Shown piece by piece: positions 28,061 through 53,500 of a DNA stretch of 64,000 nt. The DNA comes from Panopea generosa (Eukaryota > Mollusca > Bivalvia > Adapedonta > Hiatellidae). Within the stretch, counting starts at the first letter, position 1; every line of letters starts with the position of its first letter. The translations under genes were made by a program, and so were the position numbers. A model generated the notes under the pieces. The model made no database searches and had not been told where the DNA came from. It saw nothing but the letters and a program-made list of their open reading frames with translations. The stretch lies in assembly GCA_029582155.1 (NCBI GenBank), contig CM055901.1, positions 3,915,982 through 3,979,981 on the forward strand. Direction: 5' to 3'.

Positions 28061-28159
28061 AAAAAATCAATTCAACTGCCAACCAACTTCCTACTAACTA
28101 ACACTCATATTTAAAACTAGCATTTCCTGTACAATAATGTTATTTCTTAATTTTTTCAG

Positions 28160-28378
28160 GAGACTAAATATACAGACTATCGCCATGGGCAGCCTTTCCC
28201 GACTGTGTGTCGGCTGGCTCGCCATCCTATCCGTCTTTAGTGCATCGGCACAACTGTGCCAGCTGCCGCCTCGTTGGACAATCAATGGTGAAGTGCCCAT
28301 GGAGGCGGAGCGCGGCCATGTGACGGTGGTGGCGTTGCTTCAAGCAAGCTGACCGATGTGTCTCTGGCAGGCCGCAGG
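28160..28378 (+). CDS. SELENOP: SelP coding exon 1: signal peptide and U-x-x-C redox motif
   Basis: A pyrimidine-rich acceptor ends at 28159. ATG at 28185 is chosen because it opens a 22-residue signal peptide (small polar start, hydrophobic core, cleavage near A-S-A-Q). The 28160-28184 part is 5' UTR, so at least one non-coding exon must lie upstream; I could not locate it. The family block [10 protein letters not shown] is followed by TGA at 28350-28352 and then P-M-C, which is the SelP redox site with Sec in first position. The donor gtatgt starts at 28379, and the exon ends in phase 2. Confidence 0.93.
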
Positions 28379-28608
28379 GTATGTATACTATCATGTTTAT
28401 AGATGTAAGTTAGTCTATCCCAGAAACTGATATCTCCCGAATCAGGTCTATTACCCACCAATGGAAAAAGCAGGAAATTCTATGCCTATCCCACAATTCA
28501 TAGCAATTGAATGCTTACTAGACTATGACGTCATTCAAACGTTCCCTGAAGTAACTGACTAATCAGCGTAATCGTAACAAACGCTAAGTAACAGGTAACA
28601 GACCCAAT

Positions 28609-28658
<50 letters not shown>

Positions 28659-30250
28659 GGGGAGCTTGGTTCGTTCTTCAGACAAACGTGCAAGTCAACC
28701 ATTGATGCTTATTCTTTATTCTGTAGTAAATAAACAGTTTGCATGCTTGCCATGCATTAAAGGATCCAAATAAAGGAAGTGAGACTTACATTCTAGTTTT
28801 TGTCAAACTCTGCGCTACCAAATTATAATGAAAAAAGTAGGGGCCACGTGTCATCCAAGAACTTATTTTTCTGTTAAGTGTGTGCACTGTTTATAAAGTG
28901 AATTCAGATGTCAGAAATCATCTATAATTCATACCCCAATTTACCAGCAATCAATTGTTTTTATGGCTTTCAAAATACATCAGTAATGTCATTCAAATAA
29001 AAAATTAGAATTAAATTTAGGAAAATTCATTAATAAATAGGAAGAAACAACGACGATTTATAACCGCCATTATGTGACTACCTCGCCGAAGTATTTCCTG
29101 TTTCCAATGGCGGTTCTATCGCTACAGCTAGTAATGCCAGTTGCAGCTCACAGTGTATTCGTCATCAGTATGAAACTCATGAATAAAAATAATTCACATT
29201 ACATTTGTTTTTGCGTATTTAGTGCTCAAAAGTTATTGTTAAAGTTATGTCCTTTCAAGTTTTTGTGTAAAGCGGAGATCACTGTAGATCACCATACATC
29301 TATTATATGATGCATAGCAGATTGAGTCAAATGGACACTAACGAAAGAAACAAAAGGAACTCATGGGACGTTCTAATCGACATTTCACCTGAACATTTAT
29401 TGTGCATGCACATATAAACCACTTAACGTCTCACACAATAATTAATGTTGTACTGTTCTACATATAGAGACATGCACTTCTGGAACACCGGATACATTCC
29501 CAATGATTCTAAGAGTGTCTGGTTCCCATAGATAGTCCTCTGTTGGTCCAATTATGCAGAAAAAACATGGGGTTGACCAGGTTGGTTTTTCACAAAATTG
29601 ATAGTTTGATGGCACCCCTTCATTTTTGACAATTCTGCCGATTTGTTGCAGTGTATCTCAGCGCAATTTTAAACTGTTATAGATTCATCAAACAGTTCCC
29701 GATGGCATCCAAACTTGGCAAAAATCACGAAAATATTCAAATGTTCCTATATGCACAAAGAAATATGACATTTTATGCATTTTTAAAAAAAAAATTGTCC
29801 AACCGCTTTACACAACCCTAATTTCTTGGGCGTAAGAATCTTGCTACCGTCATTTAAGGGAGGTAATTCTTAAGTGAGACCATAAGGATGATAAAAATAC
29901 CAAATATTGCTCTCTGCAGTTGCTTTACAGTATTTGTTTGAGCACGGTAAAGTAACATATTTATACTTTCTGAATTACAGCCTCGAGAACATACGCGTGC
30001 AGCTTATCGGCTACAACATTCGTGACATAAAATTCATCATCATAAACTCTAAGGCAAGGCACGCCATTGACAATGTCGGCGAATTATCCCGGCGGGTAAA
30101 CTTCCCCGTGTACCAGGATACCACCAGGGCACAGATCTGGAACCTACTTGGAGGTGGAAAGGACGACATGTACATTTATGACAGGTACCTATGACAGACA
30201 CAAACACATGCGCATACACGCACGTAAACACACACACACACACACACACA

Positions 30251-30314
<64 letters not shown>

Positions 30315-30759
30315 ATATACACATGAAGACTACCGAATAGTGTGTGTTTTATTTTTATTTGTCATTGTGGTAAATTTGAGGTTTTCCACTCTTCTATTAT
30401 ATCTTGAACTGTTACATATTTTAAAGCCCCAAACATAAAAGAATTTGTAGGAGTTGTTATGGTAAAGCATTCTGTCTGTATTCTATACCTGTCATTTGAT
30501 GACAGTGTGTTAAAATATTGATAAATTCGTCTGCTAAAGATGTATGTATACAAAAAATCCATGTATATTACATAGCAAAGTTGAATTACAATTTCGAGTG
30601 TTTTATTTCCCAACCTTCTCGCCCTAAAATTTCCAAATTTTCGGCAATGGAAGTTTTATTTCGTTAGTTGAATGTAATGCTATTATACTACTGCCAAACT
30701 ATATAAACACAGCAGTGGTGACGTCCTGTTGCTTTTTCGTCACGGACGAGGTGAAGGCC

Positions 30760-30793
<34 letters not shown>

Positions 30794-32611
30794 CCCCGGT
30801 TTGCGGTCGAATCATTGAAATTGTGCCTTATCACGATAACGTGCTGAAGTGAACACGCGTCGTGGTACAACAAGGGCACTGGGATTTTAAGTCGGACTAG
30901 TAGATAACATATATTATATCGCATTTGTGATAATCCCATTATCATTAAGTTGACATCTTTCTTAAATGTACAGTCAAACCTGTCTTAAAGTGGCAAGTTG
31001 TGTGAAGGACCAAACATGCCACTTTGAGGCAGGTTGTTGCTTAAGGCAGGTTAATTTGCTTTGGAAGCATAGAAATGGGAAATAGGAAACGTGGTTGCCT
31101 AAGACAAGTGGCTGCTTAATAGAGGTGACCGCTAACACAGGTTTGACTGTATTCATAGATTAATATGATTAAAGTACGAGTACATTAAACCATTAAACTT
31201 TTCCTCTTACAGGTGCGGAAAACTAGCACATTATATCCCATTTCCGGAAAGTATGCTGAACAAAAGGAATTTCCAAGTAGCACTTTGGGACACCTACTAC
31301 GGTGACCCGTGTAACTGTACCTCCTCAGCAGACGTTGACTCCTCCAGCAGTACATCCGGCCAATCACACCGCCGTCAACCACGTCGTCACCATAGCAACA
31401 CAGGCGGACATCAGCATGCACATCATTCATCACATCATAATTCTCACCATGGACGGCGTGTCCGAAGACATCTTCGTCATCAGTCGCGGCCAAACCTTGA
31501 ACAAAGTCCACGTTTTGTTCTTCATCGCAACAGAATGAGCGAAATATCATCCAACCGCATTTCAAAATGTAGATTTGACGATACTTTGTGTTACATTCTT
31601 TACGCAAGTGGTGTGCGATACCGTCGGCGACATAAGCGATTTGTTGGGCGACTTTTAAACAATTTGTGATCTCAACGTTCGGATGTCGCCAAACGATGCA
31701 TTTGTCCGACCTATGCGTACGAAGATTCATGCCAGTGCGTTCCTGGAACTCTAAATCTAGACAGACACACTGAGCTTGACGTGTCTTTCTGTTCATGCTC
31801 ATCACAACAGCTCTTGGACGAAAGTGCATGTGTTTGTCAAACATGTGACTCTTACACGGATGCAGAAACAACATCTCCATCTACTCCGTGTGTCACTTCA
31901 TCTCCACAGACTTGACAGTGACAGCCAGCAGTAAACAACGATTCCTCTTGACAGTGACCAAGCGTCGGTTCCTGACAATGACAGACATCTGACAGTGGTG
32001 TCTCGTCTTGACAATGACCAAGCGTCGGTTCCTGACAATGACAGATATCTGACAGTGGTGTCTCGTCTTGACAATGACCAAGCGTCGGTTCCTGACAATG
32101 ACAGACATCAGACAGTGGTGTCTCGTCTTGACATTGACCAAGCGTCGGTTCCTGACAATGACAGACATTTGACAGTGGTGTCTCGTCTTGACAATGACCA
32201 AGCGTCGGTTCCTGACAATGACAGACATCTGACAGTGGTGTCTCGTCTTGACAATGACCAAGCGTCGGTTCCTGACAATGACAGACATCTGACAGTGGTG
32301 TCTCGTCTTGACAATGACCAAGCGTCGGTTCCTGACAATGACAGACAACAGACAGCGATACGTCATCCTGACAATGACCAAGCGTCGGTTCCTGACAATG
32401 ACAGACGACAGACAGTGATACGTCATCCTGACAATGACCAAGCGTCGGTTCCTGACAATGACAGACAACAAACAGCGATACGTCATCCTGACAATGACCA
32501 AGCGTCGGCTCCTGACAATGACAGACAACAGACAGCCATACGTCATCTTGACAATGACAACACTCTGAAAACGGTGCTGTGTCTTGACAGTGACCAGTTG
32601 CCTGAAATTAG
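28185..32611 (+). CDS. SELENOP: Selenoprotein P with 49 in-frame UGA (Sec) codons, three coding exons
   Basis: Secreted selenium-transport protein of the SelP family. Coding exons are 28185-28378, 29981-30184 and 31213-32611. Both introns are phase 2 with GT-AG ends. The spliced CDS is 1797 nt, or 598 residues plus TAG. Domains in order: signal peptide (about 1-22); thioredoxin-like domain with a U-P-M-C redox motif at 56-59, matching the family U-x-x-C site; a stretch ending in Y-D-R-C-G as in vertebrate SelP; an N-C-T glycosylation sequon; a His/Arg-rich metal- or heparin-binding stretch; a Cys region with four C-x-C motifs; and a Sec-rich tail from residue 367. In-frame TGAs fall at residues 56, 285, 367, 369, then four per 20 residues from 379 to 569, then 579, 581, 591, 593 and 597. 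No in-frame TAA or TAG occurs before 32609. Family assignment rests on recognised SelP motifs; Sec insertion is inferred from these motifs plus the 3' SECIS candidates. Confidence 0.94.
28610..28657. repeat. Poly-G run of 48 in SelP intron 1
   Basis: An uninterrupted G homopolymer on the sense strand followed by aggggag. It could form G-quadruplexes. Its true length may be poorly resolved by sequencing. Confidence 0.95.
29428..29880 (+). mobile_element. Interspersed element with GTCTCAC ends in SelP intron 1
   Basis: It starts GTCTCACACAATAATTA and ends TAATTCTTAAGTGAGAC. A second, inverted copy lies at 33447-33878. It may be a non-autonomous DNA transposon; no coding capacity seen. It ends 100 bp before the exon 2 acceptor. 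Confidence 0.6.
29981..30184 (+). CDS. SELENOP: SelP coding exon 2: thioredoxin-like domain
   Basis: The exon runs from acceptor ...attacag (to 29980) to donor gtacct (30185) and is 204 nt, phase 2 to phase 2. It encodes L-E-N-I-R-V-Q-L, then F-I-I-I-N, P-V-Y-Q-D, W-N-L-L and K-D-D-M-Y-I-Y-D-R. These align block for block with the SelP thioredoxin-like domain, where family members have L-E-D-L-R-V-K-L, Y-I-V-V-N, P-V-Y-Q and K-D-D-F-L-I-Y-D-R. The intron-1 junction completes a Gly codon and the intron-2 junction completes Arg, so frame is kept on both sides. Confidence 0.95.
30226..30312. repeat. (CA)n/(CGCA)n microsatellite in SelP intron 2
   Basis: CA units flank a block of CGCA tetranucleotides. 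Confidence 0.95.
30761..30791. repeat. Poly-C run of 31 in SelP intron 2
   Basis: An uninterrupted C homopolymer on the sense strand, followed by aacccc. Confidence 0.95.
30969..31151 (+). mobile_element. MITE of the same family (copy 3) in SelP intron 2
   Basis: This 183-bp copy has the clearest ends: TACAGTCAAACCTGTCTTAA at the left and ACAGGTTTGACTGTA at the right, a perfect 15-bp inverted repeat. It ends about 60 bp before the SelP exon 3 acceptor. Confidence 0.82.
31213..32611 (+). CDS. SELENOP: SelP coding exon 3: His-rich region, C-x-C region and Sec-rich repeat tail
   Basis: The acceptor ctcttacag ends at 31212; the junction gives D-R-C-G as in vertebrate SelP. The exon is 1399 nt with a terminal TAG at 32609-32611. 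It carries N-C-T, a His/Arg-rich stretch (about 31370-31490), TGA at 31667, four C-x-C motifs (31697-31837), and a Ser/Thr/Pro linker. The tail follows, with TGA at 31913 and 31919, and then ten 60-bp blocks with TGA at offsets 29, 35, 53 and 59 of each block (first 31949, 31955, 31973 and 31979). The last TGAs are 32549, 32555, 32585, 32591 and 32603. The exon holds 48 UGA codons. A caller treating TGA as stop would truncate it at 31669. Confidence 0.93.
31922..32581 (+). repeat. SELENOP: 60-bp coding tandem repeat encoding U-Q-U pairs
   Basis: Eleven near-identical 60-bp units, the last partial, are exactly in frame with SelP. Each encodes 20 residues: a P-S-V-G-S block, U-Q-U, a variable segment, and a second U-Q-U. 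Two subtypes of the variable segment are visible. Subtype A (about 31985-32340) reads D-S-G-V-S-S. Subtype B (about 32345-32560) reads with V/A-I-R-H-P. One unit has TGA-CAT-TGA instead of TGA-CAA-TGA (near 32129). High nucleotide identity, including third positions, suggests recent unit duplication or gene conversion. Confidence 0.95.
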
Positions 32612-32689
32612 ATTTAAAAGAGGACAGATAGATGTTTACGGTAAAAATTATACTGAAAACTATAAAGACTTATAAATGAATCGTTTGGC

Positions 32690-32756
32690 ACATATCCACA
32701 ATGACGTCATTAGCTAAAGCCGCGAGGTTGCCGGTGATTCTGAGTTTAGGATACAA
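32690..32756 (+). promoter_or_regulatory. SELENOP: Candidate SECIS element 1 in the SelP 3' UTR
   Basis: ATGA (32701-32704) is followed 11 nt later by AAA (32716-32718) and by a 3' GA (32742-32743), the spacing expected for a SECIS core and apical loop. A lower helix can form between TATCC (32693-32697) and GGATA (32749-32753). The upper helix pairs TCATTAGC with GCCGGTGA, with two G-T wobbles and one mismatch, so it is weaker than the second candidate. It starts about 80 bp after the TAG stop. Seen: motifs and spacing. Inferred: function as a Sec insertion signal. Confidence 0.62.
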
Positions 32757-32960: not shown

Positions 32961-33033
32961 CATTGAGTATTGTCGGATGAAATGCTTCCTACAAACCTGC
33001 GAGGGTGTGGAAGCAAAGAATATAAACTCACGT
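32961..33033 (+). promoter_or_regulatory. SELENOP: Candidate SECIS element 2 (form-2-like) in the SelP 3' UTR
   Basis: The core ATGA is at 32977-32980, followed by AA, then TGCTTCC pairing perfectly with GGAAGCA (33009-33015), extended by TAC/GTG with a one-base bulge. AAA sits at 32993-32995, 12 nt after the ATGA. A small CCT/AGG mini-stem over the loop resembles the form-2 apex. The 3' GA of the quartet is at 33018-33019. A lower helix TGAGT (32964-32968) with ACTCA (33026-33030) closes it. The A-A mismatches between quartet and helix are a departure from the ideal. Vertebrate SelP mRNAs also carry two SECIS elements. Confidence 0.75.
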
Positions 33034-33097: not shown

Positions 33098-33110
33098 AAT
33101 AAACAATAAA
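33098..33110 (+). terminator. Tandem AATAAA polyadenylation signals of SelP
   Basis: AATAAA occurs at 33098-33103 and again at 33105-33110, about 70 bp after the second SECIS candidate. This places the likely mRNA 3' end near 33125 and gives a 3' UTR of about 500 nt. Confidence 0.55.
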
Positions 33111-33446
33111 AAAACACAAAATCTGTCTTGCCGTCATTTCTTCCTTAAATATATAGATATACAGATTCCAAGTTTCGTTAAGATGTATTCAATAACCAGT
33201 ATAATCAATGCTGTACCGACTCCACCTATAAGTCTAACATTCAATTATAATGATATACCAGATACCAACTGTTTAAAATAATCAAAGACTGATACACAAA
33301 GTTAATCTAAGAAATCACAACAAAAGTTTCTTACCAGATGGCATTAAAACAATGTCAAAATAAAAAAGTCGGTAAAGCGAAAGCACCGCAAAACCACGAT
33401 ACTGTAGTAGACTCTGGTAAATAATCGCCTACTTAAATATAAGAAA

Positions 33447-33878
33447 AACCTCCCTTATATGAAGGTAGGTTCTTACGCCCAAGAAATAAGAGCTGTTTAA
33501 AGCGGTTGGACATTTTTTTTTAAAAAATGCATATAATAATGTCATATTTCTTTGTGAATATGGGAACATTAGAACATTTTCATGATATCTGCCAAGTTTG
33601 GATGACATTGGGAACTGTTTGATGAATCTATAACAGTTTAAAGATGCGTAGTGATACACTGCAACAAATCGGTAGAATTGTCAAATATTGAGGGATGCCA
33701 TCAAACCATCAAAATTGTGAAATATCAACCTGGTCAACCCCATGTTTTTTCTGCATAATTGGACCAACAGAGGACTTTCTATGGGAACAAGCCATCGGTA
33801 ATGTATCCAGTGTTCCAGAAGTGCATGTCTCTATATGTAGAACAGTACACAATTAATTCTTGTGTGAAACGTATAAGC
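33447..33878 (-). mobile_element. Inverted copy of the SelP intron-1 element, downstream of SelP
   Basis: The reverse complement matches 29428-29880 along its length (for example tgcataattggaccaacaga, and cttacgcccaagaaat). The GTCTCAC-type ends are eroded. The pair flanks SelP exons 2 and 3. Confidence 0.65.
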
Positions 33879-35919: not shown

Positions 35920-37225
35920 TCAACACTAGGCACCAGTTTCACCAAACTAGGCACCTGTTACATCAACACTAGGCACCAGTTTCGCCAACACTAGACACCA
36001 GTTTCACCAACACTAGGCACCAGTTTCGCCAACACTAGACACCAGTTTCACCAACATTAGGCACCAGCTTCACGAACACTAGGCACCATAGGCATCAGTT
36101 TCGCCAACACTAGGCACCAGTTTCACCAACACTAGGCACCATAAGCATCAGTTTCACCAACACTAGGCACCATAGGCATCAGTTTAACCAACACTAGGCA
36201 CCATAGGCATCAGTTTAACCAACACTAGGCACCAGTTTCACCAACACTAGGCACCATATGCATCAGTTTCGCCAACACTAGGCACCATAGGCATCAGTTT
36301 CACCAACACAAGGCACCATAGACACCAGTTTCACCAACACTAGGCACCAGCTTCACCAATATTAGGCACCATAGGCATCAGTTTCGCCTACACTAGGCAC
36401 CATAGGCACCAGTTTCACCAACACCACTTTCACCAACACTAGGCACCAGTTTCAACAACACTAGGCATCATAGGCATCAGTTTCACCAACACTAGGCGCC
36501 AGTTTCACCAACACTAGGCACCAACACTAGGCACCAGTTTCACCAACACTAGGCACCATAGGCATCGGTTTCACCAACACTAGGCACCAGTTTCACCAAC
36601 ACTAGGCACAGTTTCACCAACACTGAGCACCATAGGCATCAGTTTCACCAACACTAGGCACCAGTTTCACCAACACTAGGCACCATAGGCATCAGTTTAA
36701 CCAACACTAGGCACCAGTTTCACCAACACTAGGCACCAACATTAGGCACCAGTTTCACCAACACTAGGCACCATAGGCATCGGTTTCACCAACACTAGGC
36801 ACCAGTTTCACCAACACTAGGCACCATAGGCATCAGTTTCACCAACACTAGGCACCAGTTTCACCAACACTAGGCACCATAGGCATCAGTTTCACCAACA
36901 CTAGGCACCATAGACACCAGTTTCGCCAACACTAAGCACCAGTTTCACCAACACTAGGCACCATAGGCATCAGTTTCACCAACACAAGGCACCATAGACA
37001 CGAGTTTCACCAACACTAGGCACCAGCTTCACCAATATTAGGCACCATAGGCATCAGTTTCGCCAACACTAGGCACCAGTTTCACCAACACTAGACACCA
37101 GTTTCGCCAACACTAGACACCAGTTTCATCAACACTATGCACCAGTTTCACCAACACTAGGCGTCAGTTTCACCAACACTAGGCACCAGTTGCACCAGTT
37201 TTACCAACACTTGACACCAGTTTTG
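35920..37225. repeat. 22/31-bp minisatellite
   Basis: The basic unit is caccaacactaggcaccagt plus tt. A 31-bp variant adds ataggcatc. The two lengths mix irregularly along the array. Confidence 0.92.
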
Positions 37226-39328: not shown

Positions 39329-42300
39329 CTGAAGACGAAGAAATGATAATAAGCGGAGAACACAAGCAAGTCGGGAAGAAAAACTGACTCAGTTTTATTA
39401 AAATTCAAGTTGTCTGTCAGGAGTAATAACAAGTTTCAAGTTTATTAGACAATCGCCAAATTTTGCCTTTCGCCATTTACAAAGTTTTACAACGAAATAT
39501 GGCAAAGACAATATATAACTATGCCACACCATTCACGTACGTAAGCGGTTTTCTTTTTTCGTGAAAACACGGAATGGACTCCATGTTTGACAGAACCAGC
39601 AATAACGCCGAGTTAAAGGACGGGACTACTTTTTACGACCACCATAAAGCCGGTAAGTAGTAGTAATACCACTACCACTACCAAGTCTTTATTTAGAGAG
39701 TAAAGTAATTCAGTTTTATATACAAAATAAATCATGTTTTCAATGAGGCCCTTTGAATAACCCATTTAAAATCAATAATATCAAGATTACAATGTTATAC
39801 ACATACAATATCAGAAGTAGATACCTTATAAAATCTAAACAATGACAAAGTACAATATTTCATTTTCATGAAAAAGATGTTTTAGTAATCAGACATTTTT
39901 TAAATAAGAAGCAGCGTTATTCAGTTTTCTGATTGATGAAGGTATATTGTACATTGGCAATCGGATGCTTTGGCAGCCTAGAGAGCAGCCAAGAAAAGGA
40001 AACAACAGCCTCGATCTTATTAAGTCTGTTCAAACATTACACTTGTTTTGTTATGAATAGTTTAATAGGCATTTCGTAGAACACTCAAGGTATGAAAACG
40101 CAACCCATGAAGAAATATGAAAACGCAACAAGCAATTAAGCACAAGCGTATATGTATATCCATATCCTACAGTAATGATTGTCTGTTGGTGTTATTGGTT
40201 GTTTACTACAGATGTAACTGACTAATTATATACCTCCTGTTTTGGTGTCACTTTTCAAGTAATTCCTGTCTAAAACCTTTGTTGCTTTTTATATCTCTCT
40301 CTTCCTGTGTTGCATTTTCATATCTCTTAAACGTAGTTGGCCATTTGAATCAAGATTTAGTTTTTCGGAAGTTGTTTAAACTTTCAACTACATACGTTGT
40401 AATTGATTGGTAAGCGGACGTAGCTCGTACCTGTCAACATTTCCATGCAGGAGAGAGTAAACTTTTTAGCATTTTCTTCTGTTTCATCCTTTGCTTGTAG
40501 TTTGTTAGTGGCATTTTTCAATGATGTCTTCATATACTCTGCCGTCTCCTTTTCTGTATCCTTATTCAATAAGAAACCATCTATTTCTGGAATATCTGCA
40601 GTTCGTTCAAGAAAGGACAGTGTATTCAAACCTTTCTTTAATTGTTCTAGCGCGGCGACTCGCTTACCAACTAATTCCCATTTTAGCAGAATTTGTGTTA
40701 GGTGGAGGCGATTTTCCAGCTGAAATAAAAAGAAAAGTATTATAGCTGATAAGTTTAAACACTTTTTTATTCACCATATACGCTGAAGACATTGAATATA
40801 CACATTAAATTACAAGTGAATACATTCAGAAGTTATTGATGACACTTTAAATTTAATATTACACATTGAAAAAATCTTTAAAGTTATCGCACACATAAAA
40901 ATTATACATACACATGGAAAGTTATGTACTTATCTAAATAAAGTATTAACAGTGACTATCATATCCAAGTCAGTTCTAGGACTTACAGTGATCATTTGGA
41001 ATCTCGGCCAGCCGCAATGATCGATATATCGTTCTGTATCGCCCTGAATCGTGTCCATCAGCTGGTCCTCGGTTTCTGCGTTGTTCAGCTGAAATCATTT
41101 TACAATTAAAAGGACTGTTTGTAGCTACAGTTTATTCTCGTTATTTCCAGAAAACCAGGAAAATACTTTTAGATGACCAGTAGTGTAAGATAAACAGTAT
41201 ATTTTCTACAGTAAAATATTTTTCTGTGATATCCTGTAGTTTGACACAACAAACAGAGTTTGAGATAATGAGTGTCGTCTATGGAATAATTGGCCCTTCA
41301 TTTCCCCTATTATGTCTACTTGGTCCGTGCATTTCCCTGTAATGTCAATTTGGACCGTGCCTTTCCCTATTATGTCTACTTGATCCATGCATTTCCCTGT
41401 AATGTCAATTTGGACCGTGCCTTTCCCTATTATGTCAACTTGGTCTGTACCTTTCCCTATTATGTCTACTTGGGCCGTGCCTTTCTCTATTATGTCAACA
41501 TGGACCGTGCATTTCCCTGTAATGTCAACTTGGACCATGCCTTTCCCTATTATGTCTACCTGGTCCATGCCTTTCCCTATTATGTCTACTTGGTCCGTGC
41601 ATTTCCCTGTAATGTCAGCTTGGACCGTGCCTTTCCCTATTATGTCAACTTTGACCGTGCCTTTCCCTATAATGCCAACTTGGTCCGTGCCTTTCCCTAG
41701 TATGTCTACTAGGGCCGTGCCTTTCTCTATTTTGTCTACTTGGACCGTGCCTTTCCCTATTATGTCTACTTGGGCCGTATCATTCTCTATTATGTCTACT
41801 TGGGCCGTGCCTTTCCCTATTATGTCTACTTGGTCCATGCCTTTCCCTATTATGTCTACTTGGTCCGTGCATTTCCCTGTAATGTCTACTTGGGCCGTAC
41901 CTTTCTCTATTATGTCAACTTGGACCGTGCATTTCCCTGTAATGTCAACTTGGTCCGTGCCTTACCCTATTATGTCTACTTGGTCCGTGCCTTTCCCTAT
42001 TATGTCTACTTGGTCCGTATATTTGCCTATTACGCTACTTGGTCCGTTCCTTTCCCTATTACGCTACTTGGTCCGTGCCTTTCCCGAGTATGTCTATTTG
42101 GTCCGTGCATTTCCTTATTATGTCTACTTGGTCCATGCCTTTCCCTATTATGTCTACTTGGTCCGTGCATTTCCCTGTAATGTCAACTTGGACCGTGCCT
42201 TTCCCTATTTTGTCAACTTGGACCGTGCCTTTCCCTATTATGCCAACTTGGTCCGTGCCTTTCCCTAGTATGTCTACTAGGGCCGTGCCTTTCTCTATTT

Positions 42301-45300
42301 TGTCTACTTGGACCATGCCTTTCCCTATTATGTCTAATTGGGCCGTGCCTTTCTCTATTATGTCTACTTGGGCCGTGCCTTTCCCTATTATGTCAACTTG
42401 GTCCATGCCTTTCCCTATTATGTCTACTTGGTCCGTGCATTTCCCTGTAATGTCAATTTGGACAGTGCCTTTCCCTATTATGTCAACTTGATCCGTACCT
42501 TTCCCTATTATGTCTATTTGGTCCGTGCCTTTCTCTATTATGTCTACTTGGACCGTGCCTTTCCCTATTATGTCTACTTGGTCAATGCCTTTCCCTATTA
42601 TGTCTACTTGGTCCCTGAATTTCCCTGTAATGTAAACTTGGACCGTGCCTTTCCCTATTATGTCTACTTGGGCCGTGCCTTTCTCTATTATGTCTGCTTG
42701 GACCGTGCCTTTCCCTATTATGTCTACTTGGACAGTGCCTTTCCCTATTATGTCAACTTGGACCGTGCCTTTCCCTATTATGTCAACTTGGTCCGTGCCT
42801 TTCCTTATTATGTCTACTTGGGCCGTGCCTTTCTCTATTATGTCAACTTGGACCGTGCATTTTCCTGTAATGTTAACTTGGTCCGTGCCTTACCCTATTA
42901 TGTCTACTTGGTCCGTGCCTTTCCCTATTATGTCTACTTGGTCCGTATATTTCCATATTACGCTACTTGGTCCGTTCCTTTCCCTATTACGCTACTTGGT
43001 CCGTGCCTTTCCCGATTATGTCTATTTGGTCCGTGCATTTCCTTATTATGTCTACTTGGTCCGTGTCTTTCCCTGTTATGTCTACTTGATCCGTTCCTTT
43101 CCCTATTATGTCTACTTGGTCCGTGCATTTCCTTATTATGTCTACTTGGTCCGTGTCTATTATGTATTCTTGATCCGTGCCTTTCTCTATTATGTCTACT
43201 TGGTCCGTATATTTCCTTATTATGTCTACTTGGTCCGTGTCTGTCCCTATTATGTCTACTTGGTCCGTGCCTTTCCCCTTTTATGTTTACTTGGACCGTG
43301 CCTTTCCCTATTATGTCTACTTGGTCCGTATATTTCCCTTTTACGCTACTTCGTCCTTTCCTTTCCCTATTATGTCTATTTGGTCCGTGCCTTTCCCGAT
43401 TATGTCTATTTGGTCCGTGCCTTTCCCTATTATGTCTACTTTGTCCGTGCCTTTCCCTATTATGTCTACTTGGTCCATATAGTTCCCTATTACGCTACTT
43501 GGTCCGTTCCTTTCCCTATTACGCTTCTTGGTCCGTGCCTTTCCCGATTATGTCTATTTGGTCCGTGCCTTTCCCTATTATGTCTACTTGGTCCGTGCAT
43601 TTCCCTTTTATGTCTACTTGGTCCGTGCCTTTCCCTATTATGTCAACTTGGTCCGTGCCTTTCTCTATTATGTCTACTTGGTCTGTGCCTTTCTTCATTA
43701 TGTCAACTTGGTCCGTGTGTTTCTTTTTTTATGTTTATTGGCTGAAACTTACAAGACGCCTGTAAGTAATGTTCATCGGACCACATCGCCGACTATCATA
43801 ATTCGTCTTATACCAAAGGATGGCGTTTTTTTCGTAAACTAGTTCAAGTCCAAGAAAAACTTGCATGGCGAAAGAACCGAAGCATATATTATACTGTTTT
43901 ACAGGAAGAAAAAAATATTCTAAACAGAGTTTTTTACGTAGCTTAATTAGTCATCCATTTATTATGTTGTATAACGCCTCAAGGTGGGATAAATTGAGGC
44001 ATATGTGACACTGATAGAGTACAACGTTCCGTTCTCCATGTTCATTGATTAAAAAATTAATCAGTTTACAAGCAAACACGTTTTAAATGATAAATAATAT
44101 ATAAAACAATATACAAACATACGTCATATCAATGGAATGGACGAGGACGCGTGGTTCAGTGGTATCTAGAGCATCGGACCTAGGATCGGGAATCGATGGC
44201 TTGACGCTCAACCAAGACTGTTTCATGTGTTTGAGTAAACAACATTAATATATGCATTAAGTCAGTGCTTGTTCTGCCCAGAATGACAATCGATGTAGAA
44301 TAAAAAAAAAATGGAAAAGTGGTGAGTACAGTGAAATATAAACTGACTAAAGAATTCAAAATATAAAGTCAATGTTTAATATTGAGTCAAAAATGCGAAA
44401 AATGATTGTTATCTTATAAAGTGCTACTGGCTTTAAAGACAAACAAGATATAAAACTAGACTTCTTACCCTCTTTATAAACTGCCTCAGAATCACATTGT
44501 ATACCATTCCAATATTCAATTCTTTGTCATACTCCTTGTCCCTGATGTAGCTCACAACAAACGGTGCCAAGTACGGAAACCCTGGTCCGCCACTCAGTAA
44601 CGACGCGACGATAGCCTTTCCGAGCAACGTAAACCATCCGTTTGCCAAAGCCTTTTCATTGTAAACTGGTAATAGATTGCGTCCTTGGTTCTGCCCCTCA
44701 AACATGTCTACGTCTTTTTTCAGGATTTCTTTGTAGAAAAGCGTAAAGAATTCTCTTGTAGGTCCACCTACAGTTGATAATATTATATTATAGTATTATT
44801 AATAACAGTTACACATCCTCGTTATGTTATATTATTAACAAAATATTGGGCAATGAGCCACACAGTCCGTTGCATGCTGCGGTAACCCCACCCCCACCAC
44901 CCTCATGTATGAGCACCTTGTATCATACAAGATATAATTCTGCATTGACGAGTGGTAGCGCGTCAGACAATCAATCCAGGGGCCGTTAGTTCGAATCACC
45001 GTCCGACCAGCCTCCACATTCGCCGCTCAGTAATGAGACAGTTATCAGTTACTTGCGGAGACAGATGTACTAGAGTACTTGTTAACCTTACAGGAACCAA
45101 GGAAAGAGAGGTTATGCTAATTGATCATTTGTTGACACTGTTCGCTCAATGGCATAAAGATGACTCCAAATTTCAATCATTCAATATACACGGACTTGAA
45201 AAAGTTTTTATTATCACACGGATACCTTCTTACCTAGATCATCCATCTGTTCCTGGACACCTGATGTTTTGATAATCACTGCCAACGGGCTGTACTCACA

Positions 45301-50500: not shown

Positions 50501-53500
50501 CGAAGTTGATCTCATTGCCTTGAACTTCAAGAACATTAAGTGATGAGTTGGGTTTCTTCTCCTTTTCAGTTTGAGCTCTGGTCATAACCGCAGTAGCGAC
50601 AACCTCATCTGAAACAGACTGTGTTTCATCTCTGATTTTCAGGTTCTGATCTGGACTATCTGAAACTCCATAATGCCAATGATCAAATCACAAATCAATG
50701 AGTTCAACACCATCTATTTCACCCGTAAAATATGGTGTATCAACTTCAATATTGGCTGCTGGGACAATCCTAGCACGGCCATCAACAGCTATCATGACAT
50801 ATCTTTTCTCCAACATCTGTTCCTCCCGAACCAAATCCTTCCGAACTGCTGCCAGTTCGCTCCAAGTGTATCTCTCAAAACTTTAACATTTCACTCTCCA
50901 ACATAACCTTGCTTGATATGAAGTTTTCTATCGCTTCCGAGCGATTCTATGGTACAGCCTCCAGCAATTATCGGCACAGAGTTACCATATGCTAGTTTCA
51001 ACTGCCCATCTTCAACACAGTCCGAAATGACTTTCATCCATTAACATAGTCATACATAAAGCTGATACCTTGCTGTCTCCATATGCTTTTTTCCTTCCGA
51101 CTATCAGTCCTTCTCCAGTTATATTGTGACTGCTGTTTATTATCTTTTGAACCCTTTCAAGGTCCTTTAAACCCAACTGCAGCAGCACTCGATTTTTTTT
51201 ATCCTCATCTCTACAGTCTCGAGCTATGTGATCATCTCTGTTACAAGGAAAACATATTTTCTTCCTTAACTCAGAACGTTGCCCAGTTGATGGTTTGAAC
51301 GCCGCTGCAGGGTTTGGACGAAGCATATGTCTATTCGACGAAGCATTGCTCCTTGAGGATCGGTTTGAGGTTATCTTGCCTCCATGTGCTTCGATATACT
51401 GTTCGGCCAGCTTGATCACCTCTTGTCTGTCTTTTGACATTCTTTCTTTCAAAAACAACAACAGTTCTGACGAACATGTTCGAACAAACTGTTTCCGAAC
51501 TATTAAGTCTTTGATGTCTTCAAACGAAGCTCCCATCTCGGCCATCTCGGTCCATCTACTAATGTATCTATCTTTTCTAGCCATGAACTGAAACACTGTT
51601 TCGCAATGATTGGGCTTACTTTCTCTAAACCTGAGTCGAAACCCTTCTTCTGTCAACTGGTATATTTTAAGTATTGCCTTTTTCAAAGTCTGATAATCAC
51701 CAGCAAGTTCTGAAGGAATACTTGTATATACTTCAAGTCCTTTCCTAGTTAACAATGAGCTCAAACTTATTGCCCATGTTTCTTCTTTCCGGCTTTGAGA
51801 CTTCGCAAAGCGTTCGAAACGTTCTATGTACGCATCCATATCATCCTTTTGCTCTTCAAACTTTGGGAATTTCGGCCGTAAACCGTAAACTTCAATGTGT
51901 GACACTGTCTTTAACTCCAGTTTCAGCCCTGAGCTTAAACAGTTCTATCTCACGTTCCTGCTCTTCTCGCTTCAAACCTGCCTCACGCTCTTGTTACTCT
52001 CGCTTCAAACTTGCTTGCTTTTCCATTTGTTCTATTTCAAACCGCCGTCTTTTTCTTCTCATTTTTCCATACGTTCCTCCCAACTAATGTAATCCGACTT
52101 TTTTTTCTACAAAAGTCATAAACTCAGAATCAGACAGTCCCATCCGTTCACCCATCGGTTCGGTAAGTCGAAGGTCACTAGGCATTTAGAATGATTATCT
52201 GGCGTCCTGTAGATGTTCGGCAAGTCGGGCGTTACTAGGCATTTAGATAATTATCATCTGGCGTCATATAGATGTCCTGCAAGTCGGAGATAACTAGGAA
52301 TTTAGAATGATTATCTGGCGTCATGTATATGTTCGGCCAGTCGGGAGTAACTCGGCATTTAGAATGATTATTTGGTGTCACGTAAATGTTCGGCAAGTCG
52401 GAAATAACTAGGCATTTAGAATGATCATCTGGCGCCACGTAGATGTTCGGCAAGTTAGAGGTAACTAGGCATTTAGAATGATTTGTTGGCGTCATACAGA
52501 TGTTTGGCAAGTCGGAAGTAACTATGCATTTAGAATTATTAACTGGCGTCATGTAGATGTTCGGCAATTCGGAGGTAACTAGGTATGAAAATGATTATCT
52601 GGCGTCATTTAGATGTTCGGCAAGTCAGAGGTAACTAGGCATTTAGAATGATTATCTGGCGTCATGTAGATGTCCTGCAAGTCGGAGGTAACTAGGCATT
52701 TAGAAATATTATCTGGCGTCATGTAGATGTTCGGTTAGTCGGAGGTTACTATGCATTTAGAATGATTATCTGGCGTCATGTAGATGTTCGGTTAGTCGGA
52801 GGTCACTACGAATTTTGAATGATTATCTGGCGTCATGTGGATGTTAGGCTAGTCGGAGATCACTACGAATTTTGAATGATTATCTGGCGCCATGTCACGT
52901 GGATGTTTGGCAAGTCAGGGGTAACTAGGCATTTAGAATGATCACCTGGCGTCATGTAGATGTACGGCAAGTTGGAGGTAACTAGGCATTTAGAATGATT
53001 ACCTGGTGTCATGTAGATGTTAGGCATATCGGAGATAACTAGGCATTTAGAATTTGGAGGTAACTAGGCATTTAGAATGATTATCTGACGTCATTTAGAT
53101 GTTCGGCAAGTCGGAGGTAACTGGGTATTTAACATACGAGAGCCAAGCTATTACGTAACTAGGTTAATGTAAAACACGCGGAATGGGTATTACACTCCTG
53201 CCCCGGTTGGAAAAATAGATGTAAGCGGTTTTGAAAGAAGCATCATATTAATAAATAAATATCAAACATTTTAGCTTGTTGAATATAAACGTTTTGTCAC
53301 AAATCAAACAACATAACAGTGTACTGAATATCAATTCAGCACCCTGTAAATAGACTTACTGCGTGCTTTACGTGCAGGTTAAGCGTTCCACAGTAAATAT
53401 AATAAACCGTATTTTGATCTGGGGTAGTATAAAGCTCAATAAAAACTCAACATCACTCATGGTTTATATATAAGATTTACGATACAATTTAAAAATCTTT

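Follow-up and report, generated by a model that had tools for sequence, protein, structure and literature searches.

Does the long frame between positions 28185 and 32611 of the 64,000-nucleotide stretch analysed here (the window), which contains 49 UGA codons and runs on to a TAG, encode one continuous selenoprotein, and to which family would that protein belong? We conclude that the locus is very probably an animal selenoprotein P (SelP) gene, most likely from a mollusc and the sole one found in its genome, whose 49 UGAs would be processively recoded to give a secreted, selenium-carrying protein. On the sequence features described below, the in-frame UGAs most likely code for selenocysteine (Sec, U).

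Three exons joined in phase carry 49 in-frame UGAs

The original prediction had described a three-exon frame of 598 codons with 49 TGA, the first (UGA1) at 28350 and the second (UGA2) at 31667, and joining the exons reproduced all of this exactly. Exons of 194, 204, and 1399 nt (Table 1) combine in phase into 1797 nt, comprising 598 codons, of which 49 are TGA and none is TAA or TAG, followed by a TAG stop at 32609-32611; UGA1 is codon 56 (28350-28352), and UGA2 is codon 285. By eye, the splice sites are canonical (GCAGG/GTATGT with TTACAG/CCTCG, and GACAG/GTACCT with TTACAG/GTGCGG). A further splice acceptor, ATTTTTTCAG, ends at 28159, and a non-coding first exon therefore probably lies upstream. 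Standard annotation would probably truncate the gene at codon 55.

Table 1. Features of the locus, in positions of the window
Feature	Position	Strand	Description	Basis
Probable 3' part of 5' UTR	28160..28184	+		read from sequence
Coding exon 1	28185..28378	+	start in GCCATGG context; signal-peptide-like N-terminus (by eye); UGA1 in UPMC (UxxC)	SelP_N match
Coding exon 2	29981..30184	+	remainder of the thioredoxin-like SelP_N core	SelP_N match
Coding exon 3	31213..32611	+	end of SelP_N, His-rich linker, UGA2, CxC-rich linker, Sec-rich tail, TAG	SelP_N match
60-nt units	31949..32548	+	ten tandem units, four Sec per unit (40 of 49 in all)	repeat analysis
Candidate SECIS 1	32701..32743	+	AUGA, AA 11 nt on, GA; apical helix; outer helix UAUCC/GGAUA in wider fold; -9.5 kcal/mol	relaxed scan
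Candidate SECIS 2	32977..33019	+	AUGA, AAA 12 nt on, GA; outer helix in wider fold; -14.7 kcal/mol	strict and relaxed scans
Polyadenylation signals	33098..33110	+	two AATAAA, 33098-33103 and 33105-33110, 79 nt 3' of candidate SECIS 2	

The predicted protein has the parts of a selenoprotein P

A Pfam scan covering the first 410 of the 598 residues matched residues 22-229 to SelP_N (PF04592; E 1.1e-46, 159.6 bits against a cut-off of 23.2), and a genome-wide profile search located SelP_N homology in all three exons, each of which scored above the cut-off individually. With TGA read as U, the UxxC redox motif of the N-terminal domain is U56-P-M-C59, and the parts follow one another as (i) a hydrophobic N-terminus, signal-peptide-like by eye; (ii) UPMC; (iii) the thioredoxin-like core; (iv) a His-rich linker; (v) UGA2; (vi) a CxC linker (CQC, CSC, and CVC); and (vii) the Sec-rich tail. 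The last 232 codons contain 47 of the 49 TGA, UxU motifs hold 46 of the 49 Sec, and the nucleotide directly after the UGA is a C at 47 of the 49. The domain homology, the UxxC site, the Sec-rich tail, and the phases in which the exons join all agree with the selenoprotein P identity that had been proposed from the sequence, and we regard that identity as supported.

Pfam also has a C-terminal SelP family, for which no match appeared at E up to 1 in the same 410 residues, and the N-terminal 168 residues gave no match to solved structures at E up to 10. The CxC motifs directly ahead of the UxU array (31667-31945) look like UxU units.

The 60-nt array keeps the Sec frame

The strongest support for the Sec frame is its homologous, in-phase head. 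The 202 codons between the SelP_N-homologous part and the array hold no TAA or TAG in this frame, which alone is weak support (139 of 2000 dinucleotide shuffles were likewise free of both). Within the array, the nonsynonymous/synonymous ratio is 0.28 in the Sec frame, the lowest of the six frames; one minus frame (31852-32607), in which 7 of 17 changes are silent (p 0.056), has a ratio of 0.40, and the remaining four range from 0.87 to 1.38. The 60-nt units differ from one another by 8 silent and 9 amino-acid-changing variants in the Sec frame (8 of 17 silent; binomial p 0.011), and none of the 16 polymorphic columns lies within the 12 TGA-codon columns of the unit (hypergeometric p 0.015), but because the ten tandem copies are related, neither these p values nor the count of 49 are sums of independent events, and the support that the array gives to the Sec frame is moderate.

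These data bear on a reading in which translation stops at one of the first two UGAs, yielding a short form as the sole product, and the 60-nt array is satellite DNA that lies within the 3' portion of the exon and codes for nothing. Such a satellite would be in keeping with a window full of other tandem arrays, and the array is stop-free in several frames. However, changes within the array are biased toward silent ones in the Sec frame and leave every TGA codon intact; the frame is continuous from SelP_N through the 202 codons into the array, although 139 of 2000 shuffles were equally open; SECIS-like elements and AATAAA signals sit 3' of the TAG; and a search of the array DNA against the whole genome found it at this one place only and no second. 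We consider it very unlikely that the short form is the only product.

The array might instead belong to another gene, since three frames besides the Sec frame are stop-free over it (31852-32607 and 31893-32669 on the minus strand, and 31935-32675 on the plus strand). Their open lengths of 246-258 codons, the ratio of 0.40 in the first of them, and a below-cut-off Pfam match of the plus frame to PLAC9 (7.6e-5, no single stretch passing) speak for a gene of this kind. Against it, a 20-codon repeat would easily be stop-free by chance, neither the 251-codon minus frame nor the 246-codon plus frame contains a Met, the plus frame (1.05) and the 258-codon minus frame (1.38) show no constraint, and a Pfam search with the 251-codon minus frame returned nothing at E up to 0.1; we give this possibility very little credence. 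The antisense of the array (31852-32607, minus strand) reads as a stop-free Cys-rich repeat without any Met, with the ratio of 0.40 given above, and is probably a side effect of TGACAATGA on the opposite strand.

Read in the Sec frame, the protein ends in ...UQUPVAUN. Human SelP ends in UEUPSN, and from this resemblance the 60-nt unit would appear to be a multiplied terminal UxUPS module. The tail probably grew through tandem duplication of a UxU module, each 60-nt unit adding four Sec. More tentatively, and with considerable doubt on our part, the tail may be a homogenised selenium-carrying polymer that obeys a fixed rule (steps of 8 and 12 codons alternating between UQU pairs, UGA-C at 47 of 49 positions, a near-constant UxUPS half, and a variable spacer half), with a Sec number that would vary between individuals in fours via unequal exchange.

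Two SECIS-like elements lie 3' of the TAG

The 514-nt 3' flank contains two SECIS-like hairpins (Table 1), which are probable, but not proven, SECIS elements and had no place in the original prediction. When the 64 kb were scanned on both strands under strict motif-and-fold limits, candidate SECIS 2 ranked first of 21 matches; candidate SECIS 1 was missed by this strict scan. A relaxed scan returned 18 matches in 198,214 bases (the window plus seven GPX flanks, both strands counted), six of them within the window. Two of these six fall on the sense strand of the 3' flank, against an expectation of 0.024, and the corresponding Poisson P of about 0.0003 is optimistic because the relaxed limits were set after candidate SECIS 1 had been inspected. 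Compared with shuffles, the candidate SECIS 2 fold has a z of -1.5 (14 of 200 as good), and the fold of the whole 514-nt flank has a z of -2.2. Rfam at its gathering cut-off found no SECIS over the 64-kb window, and its SECIS_1 model, run at E up to 10 over 4001 + 561 bases, reported neither SelP candidate.

The flanks of seven Sec-type GPX genes served as controls for SECIS detection. In four of the seven (L026, L028, L029, and L032), the strict scan detected elements on the sense strand in which AA follows the TGA at 12 nt, and behind the other three (L027, L030, and L031) it gave no usable sense-strand match; it also gave weaker matches on both strands of these flanks, with -11.8 kcal/mol for the best on the antisense strand. 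Of the four strict-scan elements, Rfam SECIS_1 picked up two, below its cut-off, and the model also matched 4 of 14 prokaryote controls. Its genome-wide search, in which 150 of 29,235 candidates were scored, gave three matches, none above the cut-off, with the L026 element second-best.

A covariance model (R1) was built from three GPX SECIS (L026, L028, and L029). L032 was left out because an extra hairpin misaligned, L027, L030, and L031 had no usable strict-scan match to contribute, and the earlier alignments A1-A3 were set aside because their 3' arm was misaligned. R1 itself recovered L031 and L032, and found nothing in the L027 or L030 flanks. At the SelP gene, R1 gave candidate SECIS 2 a score of just 2.0 bits, which ranked third among ten matches behind two minus-strand ones, and yielded no in-register match for candidate SECIS 1; its default scan of the window reported nothing at either SelP candidate.

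RNA structure is predicted around UGA1 and may occur beyond UGA2

A 66-nt segment across the exon 1-2 junction is predicted to fold into a stem that contains UGA1 (-27.0 kcal/mol); its z relative to dinucleotide shuffles is -1.8, and 4 of 150 shuffles were as stable. Among synonymous shuffles, about 1% were as stable for codons 46-75 and 0 of 300 for codons 46-95, whereas codons 21-50, which lie upstream and do not include UGA1, are more extreme than the UGA1 windows (z -5.5). Together, these folding predictions lend modest support to a UGA1 stem. For UGA2, a window starting 22 nt past the codon, one of 25 windows, has a z of -3.1 (1 of 150 shuffles as stable), and RNA structure may possibly begin about 22 nt after UGA2. 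A structure overlapping the start codon, as in oyster SelP, is unsupported here, since a window that includes 24 of the exon's 25 UTR nucleotides has a z of -1.1.

The genome encodes a Sec machinery and apparently a single SelP_N gene

The original prediction would have fallen in a species devoid of a Sec machinery, an objection that is answered by the genome (1,474,161,289 bases in 39 contigs), in which two tRNA-Sec genes, eEFSec, and exons of both SepSecS and selenophosphate synthetase (selD) are present. The tRNA-Sec search gave 38 matches, and a check of four of these identified the best two (80.7 and 79.7 bits) as tRNA-SeC with anticodon TCA and two weaker ones as tRNA-Ser. SepSecS and selenophosphate synthetase stayed below the whole-protein cut-off, as would be expected of exons matched singly. 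A COX1 search of the genome gave no match. GPX gave 15 exon matches, eight of which span the first part of the domain, each with a TGA in the matched stretch. Sec occupies the active site in seven of these eight (e.g., ASLUG, ASQUG, and ATYUG), L023 being a Sec form; L017 reads ASMUD, the L021 stretch also contains a TAA, and L019 has Cys at the active site and its TGA elsewhere.

No second SelP_N gene was found in this genome, where matches to SelP_N and to the protein head occur solely at the three exons described here. The count of stop-type codons could suggest a decayed SelP copy, a pseudogene that gained its UGAs after function was lost, and apart from that count nothing specific favors it. 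All 49 of these codons are UGA, with no TAA or TAG among them, the splice sites and phases are intact, and the sole SelP_N gene found resides in a genome with Sec machinery, all of which leaves a pseudogene with a negligible probability.

A contig search of prokaryote, phage, plasmid, and virus collections identified one relative, a bacterial one, among 19 pattern-matching stretches. It is a Myxococcales MAG (L009, 5001-5255 and just upstream) with a SelP_N-like domain that carries CGYC instead of UxxC and is 31% identical to the query.

Comparison with known SelPs and a model for recoding

Human SelP has a UxxC motif, a His-rich linker, and UxU near its C-terminus. The gene described here has these features and the SelP_N head in common with vertebrate SELENOP, and its 3' flank offers two candidates for the two SECIS elements of the vertebrate gene; relative to human SELENOP, it has about five times more Sec, arranged in a regular tandem array instead of scattered. 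Work on bivalve SelP by Baclaocos and colleagues in 2019 reportedly placed two SECIS elements in the oyster gene.

Published accounts give two SECIS elements in the vertebrate SELENOP 3' UTR (PMC5133445) and, for Sec content, 10 in human and 5-37 across vertebrates, with up to 37 in fish (PMC8744743), 46 in Pacific oyster and 132 in a bivalve (PMC8230778), and 133 in Elliptio complanata, with annelids and ribbon worms also named as Sec-rich (PMC8744743). It is the Sec-rich type of this SelP that makes a mollusc its likely source. The caveat attached to the original prediction, that molluscs with far more UGAs are known, is borne out by the 46 and 132-133 in the reviews (PMC8230778, PMC8744743), and set beside the counts for oyster (46), Elliptio complanata (133), and fish (up to 37), 49 exceeds the vertebrate range and is no record. 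By these published counts, the gene resembles the SelPs of Pacific oyster and Elliptio complanata in its very long Sec-rich tail with tens of UGAs; it may differ from them in that 40 of its 49 UGAs are packed into ten 60-nt units, which are nearly identical and carry UQU pairs. A literature search of titles and abstract openings, with Baclaocos et al. 2019 outside its reach, returned no paper describing this gene. The locus adds a clean, apparently single-copy example of a Sec-rich SelP, the principle of which is already published.

In vertebrate SELENOP, the 3'-UTR SECIS act at a distance and permit many UGAs per mRNA (PMC8704476), and events at UGA1 matter for later UGAs (PMC5133445). In a corresponding model for the present gene, (i) the 3'-UTR SECIS elements would recruit a SECIS-binding protein and eEFSec with Sec-tRNA; (ii) UGA1, within its predicted stem, would act as a slow checkpoint; (iii) ribosomes past UGA1 would recode the 48 later UGAs processively and efficiently; and (iv) the secreted protein would combine a redox UxxC head with a repeated Sec-Gln-Sec tail carrying selenium. 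A frame that needs 49 UGA recodings would put processive selenocysteine insertion to a strong natural test, and because the near-identical units repeat matched UGA contexts within one mRNA, effects of position and of context on recoding could be separated.

Repeats and an open frame in the surroundings

An inverted pair of sequences, 86% identical, lies at 29422-29872 in intron 1 and at 33440-33877, just past the 3' UTR, and is likely to be a short mobile element that flanks the gene. Homopolymer runs occur in both introns, with about 53 G at 28610-28662 (intron 1) and 31 C at 30761-30791 (intron 2). The window as a whole (1-64000) is very rich in other tandem arrays, such as a 30-bp unit in about 81 copies at 41305-43717 and a 22-bp-based unit at 35921-37197. 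An open frame at 51015-51944 on the minus strand has a SCAN-domain match (7.4e-7) and a below-cut-off zinc knuckle, and perhaps encodes a gag-like retroelement protein.
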